Source of the DNA: Flavobacteriia bacterium
GTDB lineage: Bacteria; Bacteroidota; Bacteroidia; Flavobacteriales_D; Crocinitomicaceae
Assembly: GCA_947446925.1 (NCBI GenBank)
Contig: CANFHU010000001.1
Span: forward strand, 124,001 to 188,000
Length of the DNA stretch: 64,000 nucleotides
Reading direction: 5' to 3'
Positions 41,069-50,690 of the stretch are shown here, one piece after another (within the stretch, counting starts at the first letter, position 1; every line of letters begins with the position of its first letter). Under the pieces are notes generated by a model, which searched no databases, was not told the origin of the DNA, and worked only from the letters and a program-made list of their open reading frames with translations. A program made the translations under genes and the position numbers.

Positions 41069-41806
41069 ATGGCTACCTACTATAAAAACAAATATAGAAA
41101 TGAATCTATACGATTACAAAATTGGGATTATCGTTGGGATTCCTCCTATTTCATAACAATTTGTGCGAAAAAAAATTATTTTGGGGAAATACAAAACAAT
41201 AAAATGCATTTATCCCCGATTGGTGTTCTCGCAGATGTTTTTTGGTTCGAAATTAAAAATCACGCCAAAAATGTACTATTAGAATCATTTGTGGTAATGC
41301 CGAATCATATTCATGGTATAATTACACTAAATGGTGGTTGGATGGATGATAATTATATGGATGATGGGAATGTTGGGATGGGAAATTTTATAGGGAATGG
41401 TGATTCTGTCGGAAATGTTGATTCTGTAGGGATAGGGCATGCCCTATCCCTACAGAATCAGATCGTAAATCAACCCATATTCAAACAGAATCATACCCAA
41501 AATCACTCCCTACCCAAAAACAATGAATACAAACAAAATATAAATAATATCCCATGGGATACAAATAATAGAAAAACAATCGGTCAAAAACGATTTCAAA
41601 ACATTGGGAAAAATTCTATTTCATCCATCGTCGGGTCCTATAAATCTGCTGTGACAAAACATGCTAGACGTCTAGGTTTTGAATTTGAATGGCAAAAACT
41701 ATTTTATGAAAATAAAATACGGAATGAAGAATCTCACGACAACATTACAAATTATATTAAAAACAATATTGTAAACTGGGATAAAGATCGATTTTATTTT
41801 AAATAA
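41069..41806 (+). CDS. REP-associated Y1 transposase (RAYT / TnpA-REP)
   Basis: A 245-residue single-strand HUH transposase-like protein. The N-terminus (RNESIRLQNWDYRWDSSYFI, TICAKKN) and metal-binding H80-x-H82 in VVMPNHIHGII are typical; the catalytic tyrosine is Y191 in IVGSYKSAVTKHARR. RAYTs mobilise or spread short GTAG-marked palindromes rather than their own gene. Residues about 88-165 form a Gly/Asn/Asp-rich insert absent from the core fold; V120-Q129 are encoded by a palindrome identical to one at 11271-11298. The last 13 bases overlap batD, which converges on it. Confidence 0.9.
   Translation: MATYYKNKYRNESIRLQNWDYRWDSSYFITICAKKNYFGEIQNNKMHLSPIGVLADVFWFEIKNHAKNVLLESFVVMPNHIHGIITLNGGWMDDNYMDDGNVGMGNFIGNGDSVGNVDSVGIGHALSLQNQIVNQPIFKQNHTQNHSLPKNNEYKQNINNIPWDTNNRKTIGQKRFQNIGKNSISSIVGSYKSAVTKHARRLGFEFEWQKLFYENKIRNEESHDNITNYIKNNIVNWDKDRFYFK
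41419..41460. repeat. 42-bp perfect palindrome inside the RAYT coding sequence (REP-like, copy 2)
   Basis: Bases 41419-41439 pair exactly with 41460-41440. The central 28 bp (41426-41453; GTAGGGAT...ATCCCTAC) are identical to copy 1 at 11271-11298; the outer 7-base arms differ. It stays in frame, encoding VGIGHALSLQ between two DSV/QNQ flanks. GATTCTGT just left of the core recurs at 41402-41409, so the insert may have grown in steps. Confidence 0.9.
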
Positions 41807-43563
41807 TCTAGTATGTTTTTTGTTTTCGCTACTACCTCCTCCCAATTTTCATGGGTATCCCAAATTGTGTATTCTGCTTCCTGACAGGAACGAATAACCC
41901 AAAAATAATCTTCAATGATAGATTCAGAAATACCATGCGCTTTCATTCGTTCGGTTAATTCATCTTTAGAGATGATTTCAGAATTATCCCCTAATTTTTG
42001 GTGCATTTTCTTTGTGATAGATTTTGAAATCATTCCGTATGCAGTTTTATACTCACCTTGACTGGCTAGTTGTTGTGCCTCTGTAACCGTAAAATTTAAC
42101 TCTGGAAACACTTCTGCTAAATGTCTAGGTGTTACTTCTTCTAAATCATCTTTAGTACTAACAGGCATACCATTTTTACGTTTGCGCAATAAAAAGAAAA
42201 TTACAGTACCCAAAACAACAACTAAAGCCCCTAAGAGTACTATCCAAAGCGTAGAATGTGGTACAGATTCTTTTGCTGCTCGTTTTTCTGTTGAAACTGG
42301 AACCACTAATACTTCTTCGCCTCCTTGTACGTTAACAGAATCCGTAACTTGTACTTTTGCAGTTACTATTTCTCCTTCTAAATCAAGAGCGATTGCTTTT
42401 TCTTTTAGTGTCACATATTTTTTAATCGATGGGTCAAAGTAACTCAAGGAAAAAGAATTCATTTCCACCTTTCCAACACTCACCACTTTGACAAAGAATT
42501 TATACGTTTTCTCGCCTTCTGCACCTTCATCTGTGTAATCTATATCTTCCTTAATTTCAGGATCTCCATAGAAGGTTAAGTTTACAGGTAAATTAATTTT
42601 GGGTTTAGAAATAGCATGCATATTTCCTTTTCCTGTTACTTTGACGGTAAAAGTTAAAATCTCTCCTACTTTCGCTTTATTCTTTGAAAGGTTTGTAGAC
42701 ATGCTAAATTTACCCACACCACCATTAAAATCTTTCGGAGCTCCTTTTGGCAACGGAAGTACATCTACGAAGGTAGCGTTGGATTCAAACTGTAAATCTT
42801 GGTCAAAAAAGCCTCCATTGTTATAGCGTAATACCATCGAAAATGGTTTGATAATGTATTTACCAGGTGTAGCAGGAAATATTAATTGTTTGCCATATAA
42901 AAACGTTAAAAAGGTATTTCCTTTATAATTCTCTCGGTTAATCGAAACATTATCTTTTTTCTCAATATCAAAATTTTCCACGGTACCTTTAATTGTAAAA
43001 GGTTGGTATTGAACAATATTTGTAACATTAATTTTTGAGAAGATTTTAGCCTCTAAGAGTAGAGGTTCCCCCTCGTACAACTTACGTTTCGATTTTTCAA
43101 TAATTCCGAAAACTGCTTCTTTTAAATTCGAATTTGAAATATCATCGTCGGATTGCTCATAATTTTTCTTGGATTTGGCTTCCCCTTTTTTACGAACCAC
43201 TACGGAAAGATCATTCGATTTATAGGTTTTATTTTTGTCTTTAACCGTTGCAGTAATTGTGTATTTTCCTGGTTTTGTAAAAACTCCTTGTTGCGTATAC
43301 GAAATAGAAATCAACATGTTTCCATTGCCATCCATGGTTTGCTCCATACCATTCATGACACCCGCCTCCGTAAACGTTGCGGGAAGATTAATAGAAATAT
43401 TCCCATTTACATTGGACTTCACTGTAAAAGCGACCATTTGACCTACCTCAATAGGTTTCACGTTCACTGATAGTTGAATGTTTGGTTTTTGCCCAAAAAC
43501 GAAACTGCTAACTGTTATTAGTAAAGCAAGGGTCGATGTTGTTAGTTTACCAATCTTTACCAT
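41794..43563 (-). CDS. batD: BatD-like protein
   Basis: A 589-residue protein with signal peptide (about 1-24, FVFGQ), several immunoglobulin-like beta domains (about 26-420; KPIEVGQMVAFTVKSNVNGN, YEGEPLLLEAKIFSKINVTN, NKAKVGEILTFTVKVTGKGN), one membrane helix (about 437-458, TLWIVLLGALVVVLGTVIFF) and a cytoplasmic C-terminal domain of about 125 residues. It is the BatD component of the aerotolerance locus, thought to assist VWA partners at the inner membrane. It overlaps the upstream TPR gene by 17 bases and the opposing RAYT by 13 bases. Confidence 0.87.
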   Translation of the reverse strand: MVKIGKLTTSTLALLITVSSFVFGQKPNIQLSVNVKPIEVGQMVAFTVKSNVNGNISINLPATFTEAGVMNGMEQTMDGNGNMLISISYTQQGVFTKPGKYTITATVKDKNKTYKSNDLSVVVRKKGEAKSKKNYEQSDDDISNSNLKEAVFGIIEKSKRKLYEGEPLLLEAKIFSKINVTNIVQYQPFTIKGTVENFDIEKKDNVSINRENYKGNTFLTFLYGKQLIFPATPGKYIIKPFSMVLRYNNGGFFDQDLQFESNATFVDVLPLPKGAPKDFNGGVGKFSMSTNLSKNKAKVGEILTFTVKVTGKGNMHAISKPKINLPVNLTFYGDPEIKEDIDYTDEGAEGEKTYKFFVKVVSVGKVEMNSFSLSYFDPSIKKYVTLKEKAIALDLEGEIVTAKVQVTDSVNVQGGEEVLVVPVSTEKRAAKESVPHSTLWIVLLGALVVVLGTVIFFLLRKRKNGMPVSTKDDLEEVTPRHLAEVFPELNFTVTEAQQLASQGEYKTAYGMISKSITKKMHQKLGDNSEIISKDELTERMKAHGISESIIEDYFWVIRSCQEAEYTIWDTHENWEEVVAKTKNILDYLK

Positions 43564-44314
43564 AATTTTTCTTTTTAATTTTTTTTTGTAAAATTTTATT
43601 GTAGGACTCTATTTCTTTTTTATTCAAATTATCTAATATTCTTTCTGTAAAATTATTTTTCAAAAGACTATCCTGACTTTCATTCGATTTTTTGATTTTG
43701 GATTCTTTCTTATTTGTAGGCTTTATTATTTTCTCTTTAGGTTTTTTTGGTTTGTACCTTTTTAATGCAAGTGATAAGTTATACCTTGCAATATCATTTT
43801 TTGGATTTCTTCGAAGTTCATTTTTATATAATTCAATCGCTTTCCCATAATCTTTGAGTTTAAAATATGCATTCCCCAAATTAAAATAATTCTTCTGCTT
43901 GGTATCTGAAATGTTTAAATTATAATTTTCATAATATCTAGCCGAATTCCAATAATCACCTGCTTTGTATGCTGCCTGACCAATTTCAGCATCCAATTGA
44001 ATGTTGGAAGGAAGTTGTTTTGCTACCTGCTGATACGTTTTGTAAGCTGCAGGATAATTCTTTGCTGCATATTGTTTACGGGCAGTTTCTAGGGTAGTAC
44101 GCCAAGATTGGGAGAAAGAAAACGAGGAAATAAATAAGATGAATAGTAATACTGAAACTAGTTTATTTAACACAAAGTTCACGGAGTTTTTCTCACAAAG
44201 TTCTCTAAGTTTTTGCGTATTAGATCTCAGAGCAAGTACTCTGTGGTCTAACTTCTCAGTGCTCTCTGTGTGATTCTTAGAGTTCTTTGTGTTAAAATTT
44301 CTGCTTCTCATCAT
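43547..44314 (-). CDS. BatC-like TPR protein, 5' end rebuilt by a repeat element
   Basis: The open frame has 255 residues, but residues 6-52 are encoded by a dispersed repeat and look non-functional. A normal signal peptide begins after this stretch (LNKLVSVLLFILFISSFSFS). Either translation starts at the ATG at 44314, coupled to the SRPBCC stop (TGATGA), giving a 50-residue leader before the signal peptide, or at GTG 44173-44171 inside the repeat's terminal inverted repeat, giving about 208 residues. The mature part has three TPRs (about 70-185) and a Lys-rich tail. I favour the GTG start. Confidence 0.78.
   Translation of the reverse strand: MMRSRNFNTKNSKNHTESTEKLDHRVLALRSNTQKLRELCEKNSVNFVLNKLVSVLLFILFISSFSFSQSWRTTLETARKQYAAKNYPAAYKTYQQVAKQLPSNIQLDAEIGQAAYKAGDYWNSARYYENYNLNISDTKQKNYFNLGNAYFKLKDYGKAIELYKNELRRNPKNDIARYNLSLALKRYKPKKPKEKIIKPTNKKESKIKKSNESQDSLLKNNFTERILDNLNKKEIESYNKILQKKIKKKNYGKDW
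44166..44296. repeat. About 131-bp repeat with 12-bp terminal inverted repeats (copy 1)
   Basis: The ends TTTAACACAAAG and CTTTGTGTTAAA are inverted complements. Bases 44185-44298 align without gaps to 45296-45409 with about eight mismatches in 114, in direct orientation. Internal short inverted repeats (CAGAG...CTCTG) suggest a folded RNA or DNA. It lies in the 5' end of the batC-like gene and provides a candidate GTG start. Confidence 0.85.
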
Positions 44315-45258
44315 TTCTCAGCATTGATTTTAATGTGATTTAAAACACGATTATGAATTTGATGAATGAAATTTGAACTCCATAAATTCCAATAGAAAGC
44401 TGGTTTAATATCATTCTTATACCAAGTTGTACCAATTAACCTTGTTTTCTTTTTAGATAGTTTAATCAATTTAAACTGTCCTTTTTGTGAAACAAAATAA
44501 TCATGTAAATGTGGTGCATCAATATCCCAAAAACTTAATTCTTTCATTGGAGCTGGTTGTTGAAGCACATCAAAAGCTAAGAGTTTATTCTTTTCCCATT
44601 TTGTGATTGGCTCAACAAAACTTCCTGTTGTGAAATTACAATAACGAATTGCCCCAACCCCTTTACCTTTAATAGTAGCATTAATTGGATAGGCAATACC
44701 TGCTTTGAAAATAAATTCTGTAGGTTTTTTTAGTGTAGGAAATTCAATAACATTATTCCATACTTGATCAGCTGAAGCATTGATATCTATAGTTGTAATT
44801 ACTTTATGAATAGTAGGTTCAGTTTTATGTTCAATAAATGAAAATCCAGGTATAACAAAAATTAATAATATCATTAATGTAGGACCTTGTTGACTTCTTT
44901 TTTTAATAATAAAATTTGCTGAAATTGTTCCAAGATAGGTTATAAATATTGCTATTGGTAAAGCCATTGCTATACATACAAGCCCTTCTATGGCGAATAT
45001 TATTAATCCTAACATAAAGAAGGTTAATGAAAAATATCCTAACTCTGTACTAATGTTTTTTTCAAATTTATTTTTGTAATTATAAAGTATAATTGGTGTA
45101 AATCCGAGAAAAAATGGTGTGATAATAAACATAGCAACTCCATACTCTTCTATAACGTAGATTCCTAACAATGTCAATATTATTGCTATAAATACTGACA
45201 AAGAAATTGAATACCATTTTCTTTTTTTATCACTTAATTGACTAAATTTTTCTATCAT
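44311..45258 (-). CDS. Polytopic membrane protein with C-terminal SRPBCC domain
   Basis: About 315 residues from the ATG at 45258 (a TTG lies 6 bases upstream). Four to five membrane helices occupy about 15-150 (SISLSVFIAIILTLLGIYVI, FFLGFTPIILYNY, LGYFSLTFFMLGLIIFAIEG, TLMILLIFVIPGF). The rest is an SRPBCC/polyketide-cyclase-like hydrophobic-pocket domain: ITTIDINASADQVWNNVIEF, GVGAIRYCNFTTGSFVEPIT, LIGTTWYKNDIKP. It probably binds a small hydrophobic ligand. It is not a usual Bat component, separates batB from batC, and is bracketed by two direct repeats, so it looks like an insertion into the operon. Confidence 0.72.
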   Translation of the reverse strand: MIEKFSQLSDKKRKWYSISLSVFIAIILTLLGIYVIEEYGVAMFIITPFFLGFTPIILYNYKNKFEKNISTELGYFSLTFFMLGLIIFAIEGLVCIAMALPIAIFITYLGTISANFIIKKRSQQGPTLMILLIFVIPGFSFIEHKTEPTIHKVITTIDINASADQVWNNVIEFPTLKKPTEFIFKAGIAYPINATIKGKGVGAIRYCNFTTGSFVEPITKWEKNKLLAFDVLQQPAPMKELSFWDIDAPHLHDYFVSQKGQFKLIKLSKKKTRLIGTTWYKNDIKPAFYWNLWSSNFIHQIHNRVLNHIKINAEK

Positions 45259-45276
45259 TTTCAATTCTAATTTCTC

Positions 45277-45407
45277 GTTAAATCAATAGTCAAAAAGTTT
45301 TTCTCACAAAGATCACTAAGTTTTTGCGTATTAGTTCTCAGAGCAAGTACTCTGTGGACTAACTTCTCAGTGCTCTGAGTGTGATTCTTAGAGTACTTTG
45401 TGTTAAA
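45277..45407. repeat. About 131-bp repeat (copy 2), upstream of the SRPBCC gene
   Basis: Bases 45296-45409 match copy 1 closely; the first 19 bases are degenerate, so the left TTTAACACAAAG end is lost while the right CTTTGTGTTAAA remains. With copy 1 it forms direct repeats around the SRPBCC gene. The 164-base spacer after batB is almost wholly this repeat. Confidence 0.8.
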
Positions 45408-45428
45408 ATGAAAAATAAACATACTACT

Positions 45429-46652
45429 TCAACTTTTAACTTTTAACTTTCTACTTTTTCCATCCCCCAAATAAAACAGCAAGCAAACAATCCCCAAAAA
45501 CAATGGGATTTGATACCAATTTTGTTTGACCTCCACATCGCTTACTTCGGATTCTCCTGTTTTTAAATTGCGTATTTGATTCACAATGTTTTCTAAGTCT
45601 GGGAAACTACTCGCACTTGTAATTGCAAAACCATTTGCTTTTTGCGCTATTTCTGCCAACATTTTCGGATTTAATTTTGATACTACTTTTTTACCGTTCT
45701 CGAGGATTTTGTAACCAAATTCAGATTTGTACGGGTCGTTTGGAACATAACCACCTTGCTTTGTACCTAGACCTAATATTGCTAATTGAACTTTATTTTC
45801 TTTCAAAATTTGTACAGATTCATCGATGCCTCCTTCGTGATTTTCTCCATCTGTCACCAATAATAATAACTTGGAATTCTTTGCTTTCGAATACATACGT
45901 GCAGCATTCGACAATGCTTCGCCAATATTTGTTCCTTGTTCAGATACCATATCTGTTTCAATCTCATTGACATACATCTTCGCAGCATCGTAATCGCCGG
46001 TTAACGGCAATTGCACATAGGCATTTCCTGCAAACACACAGATACCAATCTTTTCGCCACGTAAGGAATTGATTAATTGAATTAAGGAACGTTTAGCAAT
46101 CGACAAACGGGATTCCGTAGGATTAATGTCGCGCACATTCATGGAATTGGAGATATCTAGTGCTATTAGAATTTCAGCATTTCGACCAGTGCTTGTTACT
46201 TTACCTTCTCCAAAAATAGGTTGTGCTAATGCAAAGGCGAAGAAAAATAAGGTATTTCTCAACCAAAAATACTTCCAAAATAAGGCTTTCACGTGTATCT
46301 CGGGCAATAAAATGGCTTGGGTTTGTAAAGATCCTAAAGCATTTATTTTTTTGTTTTTCCAACGCATAAAACCCCATTCTATCCCAAAAAATACAGGAAT
46401 CAGAAGAAGTATAAATAAATAGGCAGGTTGTAAAAAACTAAAATCAAGTGACTGGTTTACATAATTTTGTGCAAATTCTTTCGCATTATCTTGCATTGCT
46501 GCTGGAACAAGTTCTTTCGCCCATGCTTTCTTAAAATCTAATGCTTTAATCGCAGCACCAAGTACCAAACAAACAGCAATAAATACCCCTTCGAACAAGA
46601 GTATCTTCTTCACTAATTGTGTTATTGGATAGGTATAATTCGACTTATTCAT
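45429..46652 (-). CDS. batB: BatB-like von Willebrand factor A protein
   Basis: A 407-residue inner-membrane protein. An N-terminal helix (about 15-38), a second near 75-92 and a third near 130-150 precede the VWA domain (about 160-345), whose MIDAS motif is D-I-S-N-S-M with ALDISNSMNV; the Thr and Asp partners are in TNIGEALSNA and LVTDGENHEGG. A C-terminal helix follows (about 380-398). BatA/BatB are thought to form complexes energised by the MoxR ATPase in envelope stress or oxygen tolerance. It overlaps batA by 8 bases. Confidence 0.88.
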   Translation of the reverse strand: MNKSNYTYPITQLVKKILLFEGVFIAVCLVLGAAIKALDFKKAWAKELVPAAMQDNAKEFAQNYVNQSLDFSFLQPAYLFILLLIPVFFGIEWGFMRWKNKKINALGSLQTQAILLPEIHVKALFWKYFWLRNTLFFFAFALAQPIFGEGKVTSTGRNAEILIALDISNSMNVRDINPTESRLSIAKRSLIQLINSLRGEKIGICVFAGNAYVQLPLTGDYDAAKMYVNEIETDMVSEQGTNIGEALSNAARMYSKAKNSKLLLLVTDGENHEGGIDESVQILKENKVQLAILGLGTKQGGYVPNDPYKSEFGYKILENGKKVVSKLNPKMLAEIAQKANGFAITSASSFPDLENIVNQIRNLKTGESEVSDVEVKQNWYQIPLFLGIVCLLFYLGDGKSRKLKVKS

Positions 46653-47676
46653 TGGTTTTTAATGCAATACGTTTAACAACTAATGTGGCAAATAATAAAA
46701 TAATTGCGGTAATAATAAATGGTTCTGGTGTTATTGGTGGCTCTGAATTGTAATTTTTTTGTTCGATTTTTTGTTTTTCCAATGTATCTATCGACTTGTA
46801 AATTTCACGTAAACTTTGTTCGTCTGTTGCCCTGAAATATTTACCCCCAGTAATATTGGCGATATTTTGCAGTGTTTCCTCATCGATTTCAACGGGAGCA
46901 TCTACGTATTGAATCCCTAATGGAGTCATCATTGGTGTAGGAGCCATCCCCATCGAACCAACACCAATCGTATAGACACAAACATGCTTTTGTCGTGCTA
47001 AATTTGCTGCTGTTTCCGGAGAAATAGTTCCCGAATTATTACTTCCATCGGTCAATAAGATAATTACTTTTGATTGGATACTATCATTTCTTAAACGGGT
47101 TACTGCAGTCCCTAAACCTGTTCCAATAGCAGTTCCTCCCTCTAGATTTCCGGGCTGCGCATTATCAATTTGTGCTTTCAGAATCTCGTAATCTAAGGTC
47201 GCAGGACAAGCCGTATATGCCTCCCCTTCATAGACTACTAAGCCAATGCGATCTCCAACTCTTCCATCTACAAATTCTTTTGCCATGTATTTGGAAACTG
47301 CCAAACGGTCTGGTTCAAAATCTTTTGCCAACATGGAAGCAGAAATATCCATTGCTAAAATAATGTCAATTCCATATTTGTATTTATGGTCAAATGTTTC
47401 GGTACTTTTCCAATTATAAGGTCTTGCAAATGCGATAATTAATAAAATAAAAATGAGTGCATACGCATAAAATAATGCTTTTCGAACAGTAGCAATCCAA
47501 GGTAATTCCAAGGCTGCTTGATCGCTTTCCGATTTAGAAAAGACCATTTCGCCCTTTCTCAAACGATCTTTCACAAACACGCGCCACAAGAAAAACGGCA
47601 CAAGCAAGAGTAGCCACAACCAATGCGGCGACAAGAATTCGTAATTCCCAAGTTGTATGGTTAATAAATTACTCAC
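46645..47676 (-). CDS. batA: BatA-like von Willebrand factor A protein
   Basis: About 343 residues from GTG 47676, 8 bases inside the upstream gene's end; a longer TTG-started frame (47700) overlaps by 32 bases. FLSPHWLWLLLLVPFFLW is the usual BatA first helix, a second helix lies near 55-75, and the VWA domain (about 85-290) has MIDAS D-I-S-A-S-M (ILAMDISASMLAKDF), TAIGTGLGTAVTRL and LLTDGSNNSGTI. A final helix ends the chain (FIITAIILLFATLVV). Same complex as batB. Confidence 0.87.
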   Translation of the reverse strand: MSNLLTIQLGNYEFLSPHWLWLLLLVPFFLWRVFVKDRLRKGEMVFSKSESDQAALELPWIATVRKALFYAYALIFILLIIAFARPYNWKSTETFDHKYKYGIDIILAMDISASMLAKDFEPDRLAVSKYMAKEFVDGRVGDRIGLVVYEGEAYTACPATLDYEILKAQIDNAQPGNLEGGTAIGTGLGTAVTRLRNDSIQSKVIILLTDGSNNSGTISPETAANLARQKHVCVYTIGVGSMGMAPTPMMTPLGIQYVDAPVEIDEETLQNIANITGGKYFRATDEQSLREIYKSIDTLEKQKIEQKNYNSEPPITPEPFIITAIILLFATLVVKRIALKTNE

Positions 47677-48571
47677 CGAATTTACTTGTTTTAGTGACAA
47701 TTTCTTTTGCGCGTTGTATACTTTGCATTACCTCGGAAATGTCGGGTGAAGATTTCGCAAACTTTACTAAATCTGCTTGATTCAACATCCAATTTATTTC
47801 ACGTTGTAAATCTTGATGTACATTTAATTGTCCTAATAATAGTTCAATTTGGTAACTTGTTTTATCCATGAAGGATAACGTGTAGCGTTTACCCAAGTAG
47901 TTACGAAGTATTAAGGAAAGTTGAAAATAATATTCTTTTAATCCTTCTTGTTCCCATAAACGTTTAGCGAACAAATTATCCATTTCCAGTAAGGTTGCTT
48001 CTTTTAGAGAAAGCGGAATTTCTGGTGGACTTTGGACTTTTTTCTTTCTGAATTTAAAATAGAGTATGAGTCCTACAATTAGTAATAAACCACTAATAAA
48101 CCACACCCAATATTTTTGGAAGAATAGCGAAGTACTCGATGGAACTTCTTCAAACTTTTCTTTGATGTCGTACAAACCTTTTCCTTCTTTTATTTTAGGT
48201 GTTTTAATAAATAAATTTATTGCATTTAGATTAAGAACAGAATCATTTACGAGGATAGTTGTAGCAGGAATTGTCACATTACCAGAATCCCAGGCAGTAA
48301 TGGTATAAGAACCTTGCCAAGTAAATTCTTTTCCAAAAGAAATTAATGTATCTTGGAATTCCCCAATAATCTCAACTCCTTTTGCTCCTAAAATTTGTTT
48401 CTGTTGCGGAATAAATGAAAGTTTATCCGTCTTCTTAATTCCTTTTACCTCATAGATAAGTTCGGTTTGTTCCCCCAATAAAAAGGTATTTCTTAGCACA
48501 TATGCTTTTGGTTGCGCTACAGTGACGTAGGACAACAAACACAAAATTAGTATGTAAAACCCTTTCCTCAT
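47669..48571 (-). CDS. Bat-operon membrane protein with beta ectodomain (DUF4381-like position)
   Basis: A 300-residue protein: signal peptide (about 1-19, VTVAQ), beta-rich periplasmic domain (about 20-150), membrane helix (about 155-172, WVWFISGLLLIVGLILYF) and cytoplasmic helical tail (EIPLSLKEATLLEMDNLFAK, then RLWEQEGLKEYYFQLSLILR). The layout and place between the DUF58 and batA genes match the small partner found in these loci. Exact family uncertain. ATGA overlap with the DUF58 gene. Confidence 0.72.
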   Translation of the reverse strand: MRKGFYILILCLLSYVTVAQPKAYVLRNTFLLGEQTELIYEVKGIKKTDKLSFIPQQKQILGAKGVEIIGEFQDTLISFGKEFTWQGSYTITAWDSGNVTIPATTILVNDSVLNLNAINLFIKTPKIKEGKGLYDIKEKFEEVPSSTSLFFQKYWVWFISGLLLIVGLILYFKFRKKKVQSPPEIPLSLKEATLLEMDNLFAKRLWEQEGLKEYYFQLSLILRNYLGKRYTLSFMDKTSYQIELLLGQLNVHQDLQREINWMLNQADLVKFAKSSPDISEVMQSIQRAKEIVTKTSKFGE

Positions 48572-49440
48572 TTTTTATGTCGTTGAAATAAGTGTACTAG
48601 TTTTGGAATATAATCTTCTGATGTATTCAATACTTCTTGTTGTACGCCAATACGTTTAAAAAGTGAAGTTAAAGTTTCACTTTGTGCTATTGCTTGTTCT
48701 TCAAAACGTTTACGTGTTTTTTTATCGGAAGTATTCACCCAATTGGTGGTTCCTGTTTCTGCATTGTAAAGTTGAATTAAACCTAAATCTGGCAAAATAT
48801 ATTCCGCTTCATCTTGGATACGCAAGGCAATCATGTCGTGTTTACGTTTTAGTAAGGCCAGAGCACTTTCCATCGGATGTTCATCGATAAAATCGCTAAT
48901 CACAAAACATACTGTGCGTTTTTTCATACAGTTTCTAAAGAACTCCAAGCCTTTCACCAAGTTGGTTGTTTTGCTTTTCGCTTCAAATTCGATGAATTCG
49001 CGTAAGATATAAAGCACATGTTTCTTTCCTTTTCCGGGAGCGATGTATTTCTCAACACCATCTGAAATAAACATGGCTCCTACTTTGTCGTTATTTTCAA
49101 TCGCAGAAAAAGCTAGTACCGCCATTAATTCAAGTGCTAATTCTTTTTTTGTTTTTCCACCTGTTCCAAAATTGGTCGATCCAGAAATATCGACTAACAA
49201 CATCACTACCAACTCGCGTTCTTCCTCAAATACCTTCACATAAGGACTACGAAAACGTGCTGTAACGTTCCAATCTATGGTACGTACCTCATCCCCCAAC
49301 TGATATTCGCGCACCTCACTAAAGGTCATACCTCTCCCCTTGAACGAAGAATGGTATTGACCCGTAAAGAACTGTTTGGTTAGTCCTTTGGTTTTTATTT
49401 CAATACGACGAATTTTTTCTAGTAGTTCGGTTGTTTTCAT
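48568..49440 (-). CDS. DUF58 protein of the MoxR/Bat locus
   Basis: A 290-residue cytosolic protein. The DUF58 core is plain: GQYHSSFKGRGMTFSEVREY, then QLGDEVRTIDWNVTARF, followed by a VWA-like segment with MLLVDISGSTNFGT (MIDAS-like D-I-S-G-S). It usually follows moxR and links the ATPase to BatA/BatB. The gap to moxR is about 116 bases and holds a 14-bp palindrome (49509-49522). Stop overlaps the next gene's start. Confidence 0.9.
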   Translation of the reverse strand: MKTTELLEKIRRIEIKTKGLTKQFFTGQYHSSFKGRGMTFSEVREYQLGDEVRTIDWNVTARFRSPYVKVFEEERELVVMLLVDISGSTNFGTGGKTKKELALELMAVLAFSAIENNDKVGAMFISDGVEKYIAPGKGKKHVLYILREFIEFEAKSKTTNLVKGLEFFRNCMKKRTVCFVISDFIDEHPMESALALLKRKHDMIALRIQDEAEYILPDLGLIQLYNAETGTTNWVNTSDKKTRKRFEEQAIAQSETLTSLFKRIGVQQEVLNTSEDYIPKLVHLFQRHKK

Positions 49441-49508
49441 GAATATTTTTAGAAAAGTAGAAATTTGTCACCCTCTTCAATCCTATCTGCGCTAACGCTT
49501 AGGTCTTC

Positions 49509-49522
49509 GAAAGTATACTTTC
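49509..49522. repeat. 14-bp perfect palindrome between moxR and the DUF58 gene
   Basis: GAAAGTATACTTTC is fully self-complementary. It lies in the only non-overlapping spacer of the upstream part of the Bat operon (49441-49556). It could be an operator for a downstream promoter or part of a small dispersed repeat; the pyrimidine/purine-rich surroundings (CACCCTCTTCAATCC, CTCAAAGGGAGG) look non-coding. Confidence 0.45.
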
Positions 49523-49556
49523 TCTTCTCAAAGGGAGGAAGAAAAAGTTCATATAA

Positions 49557-50579
49557 TTATGGTACATCCACACGATTAATAACAGCTTCTACAATTTTCT
49601 TCGCAGTCATGTTTTCTGCTTCTGCTTCGTAACTTAATCCGATACGGTGTTGCATCACATCTACAGCAACTGCACGAATATCTTCTGGAATCACAAATGC
49701 ACGGTTATTTAAGAAAGCATGCGCTTTACCTGCCAATGCTAAATTGATACTTGCACGAGGGGAACAACCAAAAGAAATCAAGGTTTCCAAATTTGGCAAT
49801 CCATATTTACTTGGATTACGTGTCGCGAACACTAAGTCCACTATGTATTGTTCTATTTTTTCGTCTAGGTAAATTTCGCGTGTTAGTTCGCGTAAACGAA
49901 GGATATCTGAAGTAGAAAGTGTTTTGGAAATTTTCTCCAAGCCTTCCTTACGCACATTCGCACGGATAATCAATTTCTCTTCTTCCATTTTCGGGTAGTC
50001 TAAAACTACTTTCAACATAAAACGATCGACCTGCGCTTCTGGCAACATGTACGTTCCTTCTTGATCGATAGGATTTTGTGTCGCAAGTACTAAAAACGGA
50101 TTTGGTAATTGAAATGTTTCATCTCCAATCGTAATTTGACGTTCTTCCATCGCTTCCAATAGGGCACTTTGTACTTTCGCAGGAGCACGATTGATCTCAT
50201 CTGCCAACACAAAATTGGCAAAAATTGGACCTTTCTTCACGCTAAACGTTTCACTTTTTTGATTGTACATCTGCGTACCACTTACATCTGCAGGGAGTAA
50301 ATCTGGCGTAAATTGAATGCGACTAAACGTAGCATCCAATGCTTGCGCTAAACTTTTTATTGCTAATGTTTTTGCTAAACCAGGAACACCTTCTAAAAGT
50401 ACATGTCCATCCGCAATTAACGCAATTAACAAGCGATCAACCATATATGACTGACCAACAATTACTTTGCTCATTTCTTTACGTAGTAATTGTACGATGT
50501 GGTTTTCCATTTGAATTTTGTCTGCAAGTAGTCTTAAACTTTCTGCAGGACTTAAAATATCATTTTGTAATGAAGACAT
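49557..50579 (-). CDS. MoxR-family AAA+ ATPase
   Basis: About 340 residues from the ATG at 50579 (MSSLQND); the frame extends 33 bases further upstream without support. Walker A is GVPGLAKT, Walker B FVLADEINRAPAKVQSALLE, sensor 1 LATQNPIDQEGTY, and the arginine-rich FGCSPRASINL typical of MoxR. MoxR ATPases act as chaperones that mature or energise VWA-domain partners, here encoded directly downstream. It is the first gene of the Bat operon. Confidence 0.94.
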   Translation of the reverse strand: MSSLQNDILSPAESLRLLADKIQMENHIVQLLRKEMSKVIVGQSYMVDRLLIALIADGHVLLEGVPGLAKTLAIKSLAQALDATFSRIQFTPDLLPADVSGTQMYNQKSETFSVKKGPIFANFVLADEINRAPAKVQSALLEAMEERQITIGDETFQLPNPFLVLATQNPIDQEGTYMLPEAQVDRFMLKVVLDYPKMEEEKLIIRANVRKEGLEKISKTLSTSDILRLRELTREIYLDEKIEQYIVDLVFATRNPSKYGLPNLETLISFGCSPRASINLALAGKAHAFLNNRAFVIPEDIRAVAVDVMQHRIGLSYEAEAENMTAKKIVEAVINRVDVP

Positions 50580-50690
50580 AAAGTGGGTTATTTCTTGCTG
50601 CAAAAGTGCCAAAAATTGGTGGTTTAATACTTGGTTTTGCTGTTAATTAATGTTAACATTGCACCCGTAAACGCCTAATTATCTAGTGTT

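Follow-up and report, generated by a model that had tools for sequence, protein, structure and literature searches.

A palindromic repeat pair around an accessory gene between batB and batC in a Flavobacteriia genome

How does a gene foreign to the Bat operon come to lie between two nearly identical repeats in the midst of that operon, and what part did the repeats play? The question arises from a 64,000-nucleotide stretch of a Flavobacteriia bacterium genome (contig CANFHU010000001.1, positions 124,001 to 188,000; hereafter the window, whose numbering is used below). Its minus strand carries, in this order, moxR, DUF58, a BatD-like gene, batA, batB, a repeat copy (R1), a single gene, a second repeat copy (R2), batC and batD. 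The upstream part of the operon, comprising moxR, DUF58, the BatD-like gene and batA (46645–50612), is intact as judged from ORFs and profile search. The following batB (45429–46652), assigned by profile search and aligned with its relatives, ends in ~50 bp of another allele type, which mark a recombination breakpoint. On the other side of the block, batC (43547–44314) encodes a TPR protein with a signal peptide; its long ORF runs through R2 and its middle part is diverged from all congeners. The last gene, batD (41794–43563), matches PF13584. The original prediction that one gene is enclosed between batB and batC/batD was correct, with the neighbours as claimed.

Structure of the repeat pair

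R1 (about 45277–45408) sits on the batB side and R2 (about 44166–44297) on the batC side, both on the minus strand. The former was delineated by repeat search, blastn, covariance model and alignment, the latter by repeat search, covariance model and folding. As predicted, they are near-identical direct repeats: 132 nt in length (44167–44298 and 45278–45409 in the repeat search) at a spacing of 1111 nt, they share 89% identity over the full length and, by blastn, 94% over 112 bp. The repeat unit is an imperfect palindrome made of degenerate CACAAAG-like words, with a hairpin z-score of -3.2 as DNA; as RNA, R2 forms one long hairpin with a z-score of -4.1. R2 possesses perfect inverted ends of 12 bp (TTTAACACAAAG/CTTTGTGTTAAA at 44166–44177/44285–44296, 100% complementary), and the inner end of R1, which faces the enclosed gene, is decayed. 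A possible leader copy precedes each of R1 and R2, that of R1 aligning weakly.

The genome-wide search proposed in the original prediction gave no further copy by blastn (E≤0.001), for which R1 and R2 are the sole copies in the 3.15-Mb genome, but gave more by a covariance model built from R1, R2 and copies from relatives. The model recovered the pair (E values of 1.8e-25 and 1.8e-21) together with ~10 further sites in this genome that are more diverged than R1 and R2, and many sites in the congeners. R1 and R2 contain no transposase ORF, and an Rfam search with the repeat gave no matches. A phage or viral origin was dropped, since a search of phage DNA returned no match and the exact end-to-end repeat pattern was absent from viral contigs.

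Comparison with the corresponding pair of the congener G001 revealed four informative sites, at which R1 and R2 of the same genome group together; no site groups the orthologous copies. R1 and R2 of this genome have four derived sites in common compared to both G001 copies. Such grouping within each genome shows that the copies have been homogenised, and indicates recombination between R1 and R2.

The enclosed gene

The gene between the repeats (44311–45258, minus strand), the sole ORF there, was defined by ORF, profile search and homolog alignment. Its product comprises four N-terminal TM-like segments (residues 20–144) and a C-terminal SRPBCC-like domain. The gene starts with ATG at 45258; a TTG at 45264 is also possible (ORF 44311–45264, 317 aa). 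The C-terminal domain likely adopts the SRPBCC fold: it scores 21.7 bits against PF10604 (Polyketide_cyc2), below the gathering cut-off of 27.4, and its homologs score 25–27 bits, the nearest one 27.1. These homologs share a strongly conserved core, PAPMKELSFWDIDAPHLHDYFVS..KGQF. A PDB sequence search with the SRPBCC protein and with the GxxExxY proteins described below found no meaningful relatives. A role of the SRPBCC protein as a defence factor was dropped, as a PADLOC search with it gave no matches.

That the gene is foreign to the operon, as originally proposed, was borne out: it is an insertion compared to most congeners, and is found in 13 of 299 genomes of the order (E≤1e-30). The best homologs (54–58% identity) are scattered across other genera and families, and one relative of 52% identity resides on a Spirosoma plasmid. 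The GC contents of the gene and of batC are 27.5% and 28.6%, compared to 35.8% for batB and 34.7% for batD. Of the 12 homologs examined, 11 have varied neighbours and no repeats of at least 30 bp within their ~1.5-kb flanks, and the other has tandem repeats downstream. Given its sporadic occurrence and these 11 homologs, the gene is a roaming accessory gene that is not repeat-linked in itself.

The batB–batC junction among relatives

Twelve congeners were searched with batB, and junction states were taken from those that contained the junction; all sequences compared are MAGs. Together with this genome, they display five states. The junction has no repeat in G005, G010 and the more distant G006, G007 and G012, and one repeat in G008 and G009. 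In G001 it consists of R1, a ~70-bp remnant covering the last 19 codons of the enclosed gene, and R2, with a deletion that begins exactly where R1 ends. This genome has R1, the complete gene and R2, whereas G004 has two unrelated ORFs, one of them TPR-like, and no repeat of the family (L032, 6750–8500). The comparison of relatives, as suggested in the original prediction, thus revealed empty, solo, remnant and filled states. The gene was also sought at this junction without repeats, and none was found among the genomes examined; G001, the sole congener with a trace of it, has both repeats.

In a tree of three genes, which show recombination among them, this genome clusters with G008/G009 (99% support). 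Loss of the gene from G008/G009 by a crossover between R1 and R2 was considered and is not demonstrable, as their single repeat has an R2/leader-type left flank and the left flank of R1 is ambiguous. The unrelated ORFs of G004 make the junction look like an insertion hotspot. The spacer of G005 and G010 (L033/L034) has a CTGAGCGGAGTCGAAG-like motif, which we take to resemble another dispersed repeat of Bacteroidota.

Probable entry of the block by homologous recombination

Compared to G008/G009, batB of this genome is 92–96% identical. Around R2, the identity is 89% to G001 and 76% to G008/G009; it falls to 59–62% to all relatives in the middle of batC, and is back up to 85–92% in batD. At the protein level, BatC diverges from residue ~116 and rejoins its relatives at the C-terminal GKDW. 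In this genome, the final ~50 bp of batB contain a switch from G008/L051-type to G001-type sequence. L051 is the closest relative found, with a batB of 97% identity (mostly 95–100% in 75-bp windows); its batB tail, of G008 type, runs straight into the leader ATGAGTAGCATAAAT and a repeat, inside which the contig ends, leaving the right side unseen.

Because of the solo-type junction of L051, the switch in the batB tail, the low GC content and the odd middle of batC, we consider it most likely that the repeat–gene–repeat block is a recent acquisition from another lineage, through homologous recombination within the bat genes. A donor with high identity was not found, and the divergence of the middle of batC could alternatively reflect fast evolution rather than a diverged donor.

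We propose that the batB–batC junction held a dispersed palindromic element of about 110–150 bp (RPE/MITE-like), already single-copy in relatives. In a donor lineage, the accessory membrane/SRPBCC gene would have ended up between two units of leader and element; we infer that its first capture was either a tandem duplication of leader and element followed by insertion, or a Campbell-type integration. This genome would have received, by homologous recombination, a segment that reaches from the final ~50 bp of batB across R1, the gene and R2 into batC, and gene conversion would since then have kept R1 and R2 alike. R2 would have replaced the original start region of batC and most likely provides its start codon (GTG). 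From the pre-existing solo element to the new start of batC, the account as a whole appears probable to us.

The start of batC

R2 overlaps the batC reading frame and is in frame with the long batC ORF. This long ORF is found in all four species that have the repeat at this position, where it begins in a ATGAGAAGC-like leader and is open through the repeat. In the leader/repeat stretch, most substitutions affect codon positions 1 and 2 and most are nonsynonymous, with 15 nonsynonymous versus 2 synonymous codons in the comparison of this genome with G001. By contrast, when other species are compared with this genome, the signal-peptide part after the repeat differs mainly at codon position 3. 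The absence of protein-level constraint upstream, together with constraint downstream, argues for a start inside the terminal CTTTGTGTTAAA of R2. There, a GTG at 44173–44171 on the minus strand is conserved in the four species, and batC probably starts at this codon, giving MLNKLVSVLLFILFISSFSFSQ. The R2 stretch ahead of it probably serves as a leader that is either untranslated or merely tolerated; the substitution pattern led us to reject a BatC leader that is encoded by the repeat and under constraint. Such a start would be an example of a repeat taking over the beginning of an operon gene that looks essential.

The insert had also been predicted to split batB from batC/batD, with possible consequences for downstream expression. 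The split is real by position, but the stop codon of the SRPBCC gene overlaps the first possible ATG of batC (ATGA), and by this overlap the two genes may still be co-transcribed. A candidate promoter in R1, a 10/12 match, lies at 45293–45264 and might uncouple the downstream genes.

The repeat family and its cargoes at other loci

The repeat family is scattered through the genus, and many of its loci consist of tandem direct copies; most of 40 copies have no frame open throughout. It brackets two other cargoes, namely GxxExxY genes and a mobile mystery A/B (HTH–Fic) pair, at loci where congeners are empty or have one repeat. In G001, the speA/TonB locus comprises a tandem array of about five copies, a GxxExxY gene and a further single copy; the same arrangement, spread over contig ends, is present in this genome. 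G005 has a solo copy at the locus, and G004, G008 and G009 are empty there. Elsewhere, G004 possesses another GxxExxY gene that is enclosed by copies, and in all, GxxExxY genes are bracketed by this family in three congeneric genomes at two loci. At ribD/eamA, a single element is present in this genome, G001, G004 and G005 (that of G005 of mixed type), and none in G008 and G010. By comparison, G009 possesses a repeat, mobile mystery A (HTH; TIGR02612, 141 bits), mobile mystery B (Fic; TIGR02613, 252 bits) and a second copy, which is part of a 174-bp duplication comprising the repeat and ~40 bp from the 3' end of ribD. Such duplication of leader and element on both sides of a cargo resembles the outcome of Campbell-type integration or of an insertion into a tandem array between two of its units. 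Candidate target-site duplications are ATAAA at batC and ATTA at speA, both AT-rich and at blurred insert ends.

Overall, the idea of a cargo gene between repeats is largely supported by these comparisons: the gene is an insertion of sporadic occurrence, and the repeats bracket other cargo. The evidence favours recombination of the whole block over the repeats as mover or a transposing composite element, and no transposase or autonomous partner tied to the repeats was seen beside the copies read. The loci connect a short palindromic repeat family with accessory genes that are interchangeable and occupy defined positions in core operons, the alleles of sister species being empty, solo or filled.

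Association with GxxExxY genes

The GxxExxY proteins match TIGR04256 (147 bits, cut-off 35) and PF13366 (E 2.5e-43), and belong to the PD-(D/E)XK nuclease superfamily, with the E in GLLEKVY, the D in YRIDLL and the ELK in IELKS. Across the family, 42 non-identical loci with enough flank were counted, some of them orthologous to each other; the 87 control ORFs were drawn from stretches fetched for the analysis, not from a random genome sample. Direct repeats of at least 40 bp lie within 700 bp of 28 of the 42 loci, compared to 3 of these 87 controls (p=9e-15), and bracket 11 loci compared to one control (p=1.5e-5). Within the genus, the repeat type follows the GxxExxY protein clade, and two clades keep their own repeat type at non-orthologous loci (two pairs). 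The relation is an association, suggestive of a candidate nuclease partner, and it suggests a testable role for a widespread gene family without known function. A search of a paper library on the repeat motif, GxxExxY, PDDEXK_3 and the mobile mystery proteins found no published link to repeats.

The association invites a further-reaching explanation, in which repeat–gene–repeat units are mobile cassettes moved by repeat recombination or nuclease-triggered repair. The GxxExxY nucleases would act on clade-specific cognate palindromes in tandem amplification, homing and gene capture, and the SRPBCC gene and the mobile mystery pair with their repeats would be cargo cassettes. Three cargo types within one repeat family, three loci with solo or empty alleles, the excess of adjoining and bracketing repeats over controls, the clade-specific repeat types and the presence of GxxExxY genes in genomes rich in these elements are all consistent with it; however, no cargo of the family was seen moving between loci, G010 and G006 have GxxExxY genes but few or no elements of this type, and plain homologous recombination fits the SRPBCC block. 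We hold this explanation to be rather doubtful; if true, the GxxExxY/palindrome cassettes would represent a class of mobile element that has so far gone unrecognised in Bacteroidota.

Other origins of the arrangement

Homologous recombination of a block assembled in a donor is the reading we prefer, and three others fit less well. Two repeats might have inserted independently around an SRPBCC gene that was already resident, as elements of the family occupy many intergenic sites. Against this improbable course, the congeners with the repeat lack the gene (G001 having a remnant), none has the gene without the repeat, R1 and R2 are both in direct orientation, and they are too alike, given the much greater divergence of the other family members of this genome. 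A classical integron gene cassette with attC-like palindromes would explain directly repeated imperfect palindromes of attC-like size, a gene between them and ends of the form AAC...GTT. It is largely refuted because an IntI over the curated cut-off occurs in 0 of 13 genus genomes, with tyrosine recombinases matching in every genome, controls included; moreover, RYYYAAC is absent from the outer end, the cargo at ribD is flanked by a duplicated host-gene piece, and the loci are dispersed rather than in a single array, which leaves this origin very improbable. Hardly any credence is due to a misassembled repeat in a MAG: although repeats of this family end several contigs, the structure lies within a 490-kb contig and the independent assembly G001 has both repeats and a remnant of the same gene.

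Comparison with known systems

The batB–batC repeats are RPE/MITE-like, the closest known kinds being Rickettsia palindromic elements and MITEs. Rickettsia palindromic elements are dispersed imperfect palindromes of ~100–150 bp, which form several sub-families and can be in-frame (PMC10969869). The bat repeats are likewise dispersed imperfect palindromes of ~100–150 bp, and R2 is open through to batC in four species. They differ in that most copies are intergenic and often tandem, pairs bracket whole genes, and the R2 leader is without protein-level constraint. Similar to MITEs (Correia/NEMIS, ERIC, BOX), they are short, non-coding and dispersed, with terminal inverted repeats and solo or empty alleles; however, tandem arrays are common in this family, and no parent transposase sharing the repeat ends was seen beside the copies read. 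A gene between two direct copies resembles a composite transposon, from which the pair differs in coding for no transposase. The SRPBCC gene shares the bracketing repeat family with the GxxExxY loci, but is without the nuclease.

REP elements are 20–40 bp long with GTAG/CGTC tags (PMC3733652). The bat repeats are also palindromic and have a RAYT-like gene (below the family cut-off) 2.4 kb away, but differ from REPs in these respects, and the bat-family repeat is absent at the RAYT gene. This RAYT-like Y1 transposase gene (41069–41806, plus strand) has a PNHIHG motif, overlaps the 3' end of batD and scores 38.8 bits against NF047646 (cut-off 80); it is found at the same place in G008 (about 96% identical DNA) and is absent from the sister G009. 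RAYT as the mover was dropped, since its presence in this genome and G008 does not track the repeats and no repeat lies at its gene.

Several contigs break inside repeats, including four of this genome (C1 start, C13 end, C25 end and C45 start) and the end of L051; the repeats thereby fragment metagenome assemblies and hide cargo. The GxxExxY genes of L149–L162 display several tandem repeat types with units of 64–220 bp, one type per protein clade. On contig C53 of G004 (L134, 1700–9990), arrays of a CCTCCGTGTCCTTTGTG-type repeat separate successive histidine-kinase genes.
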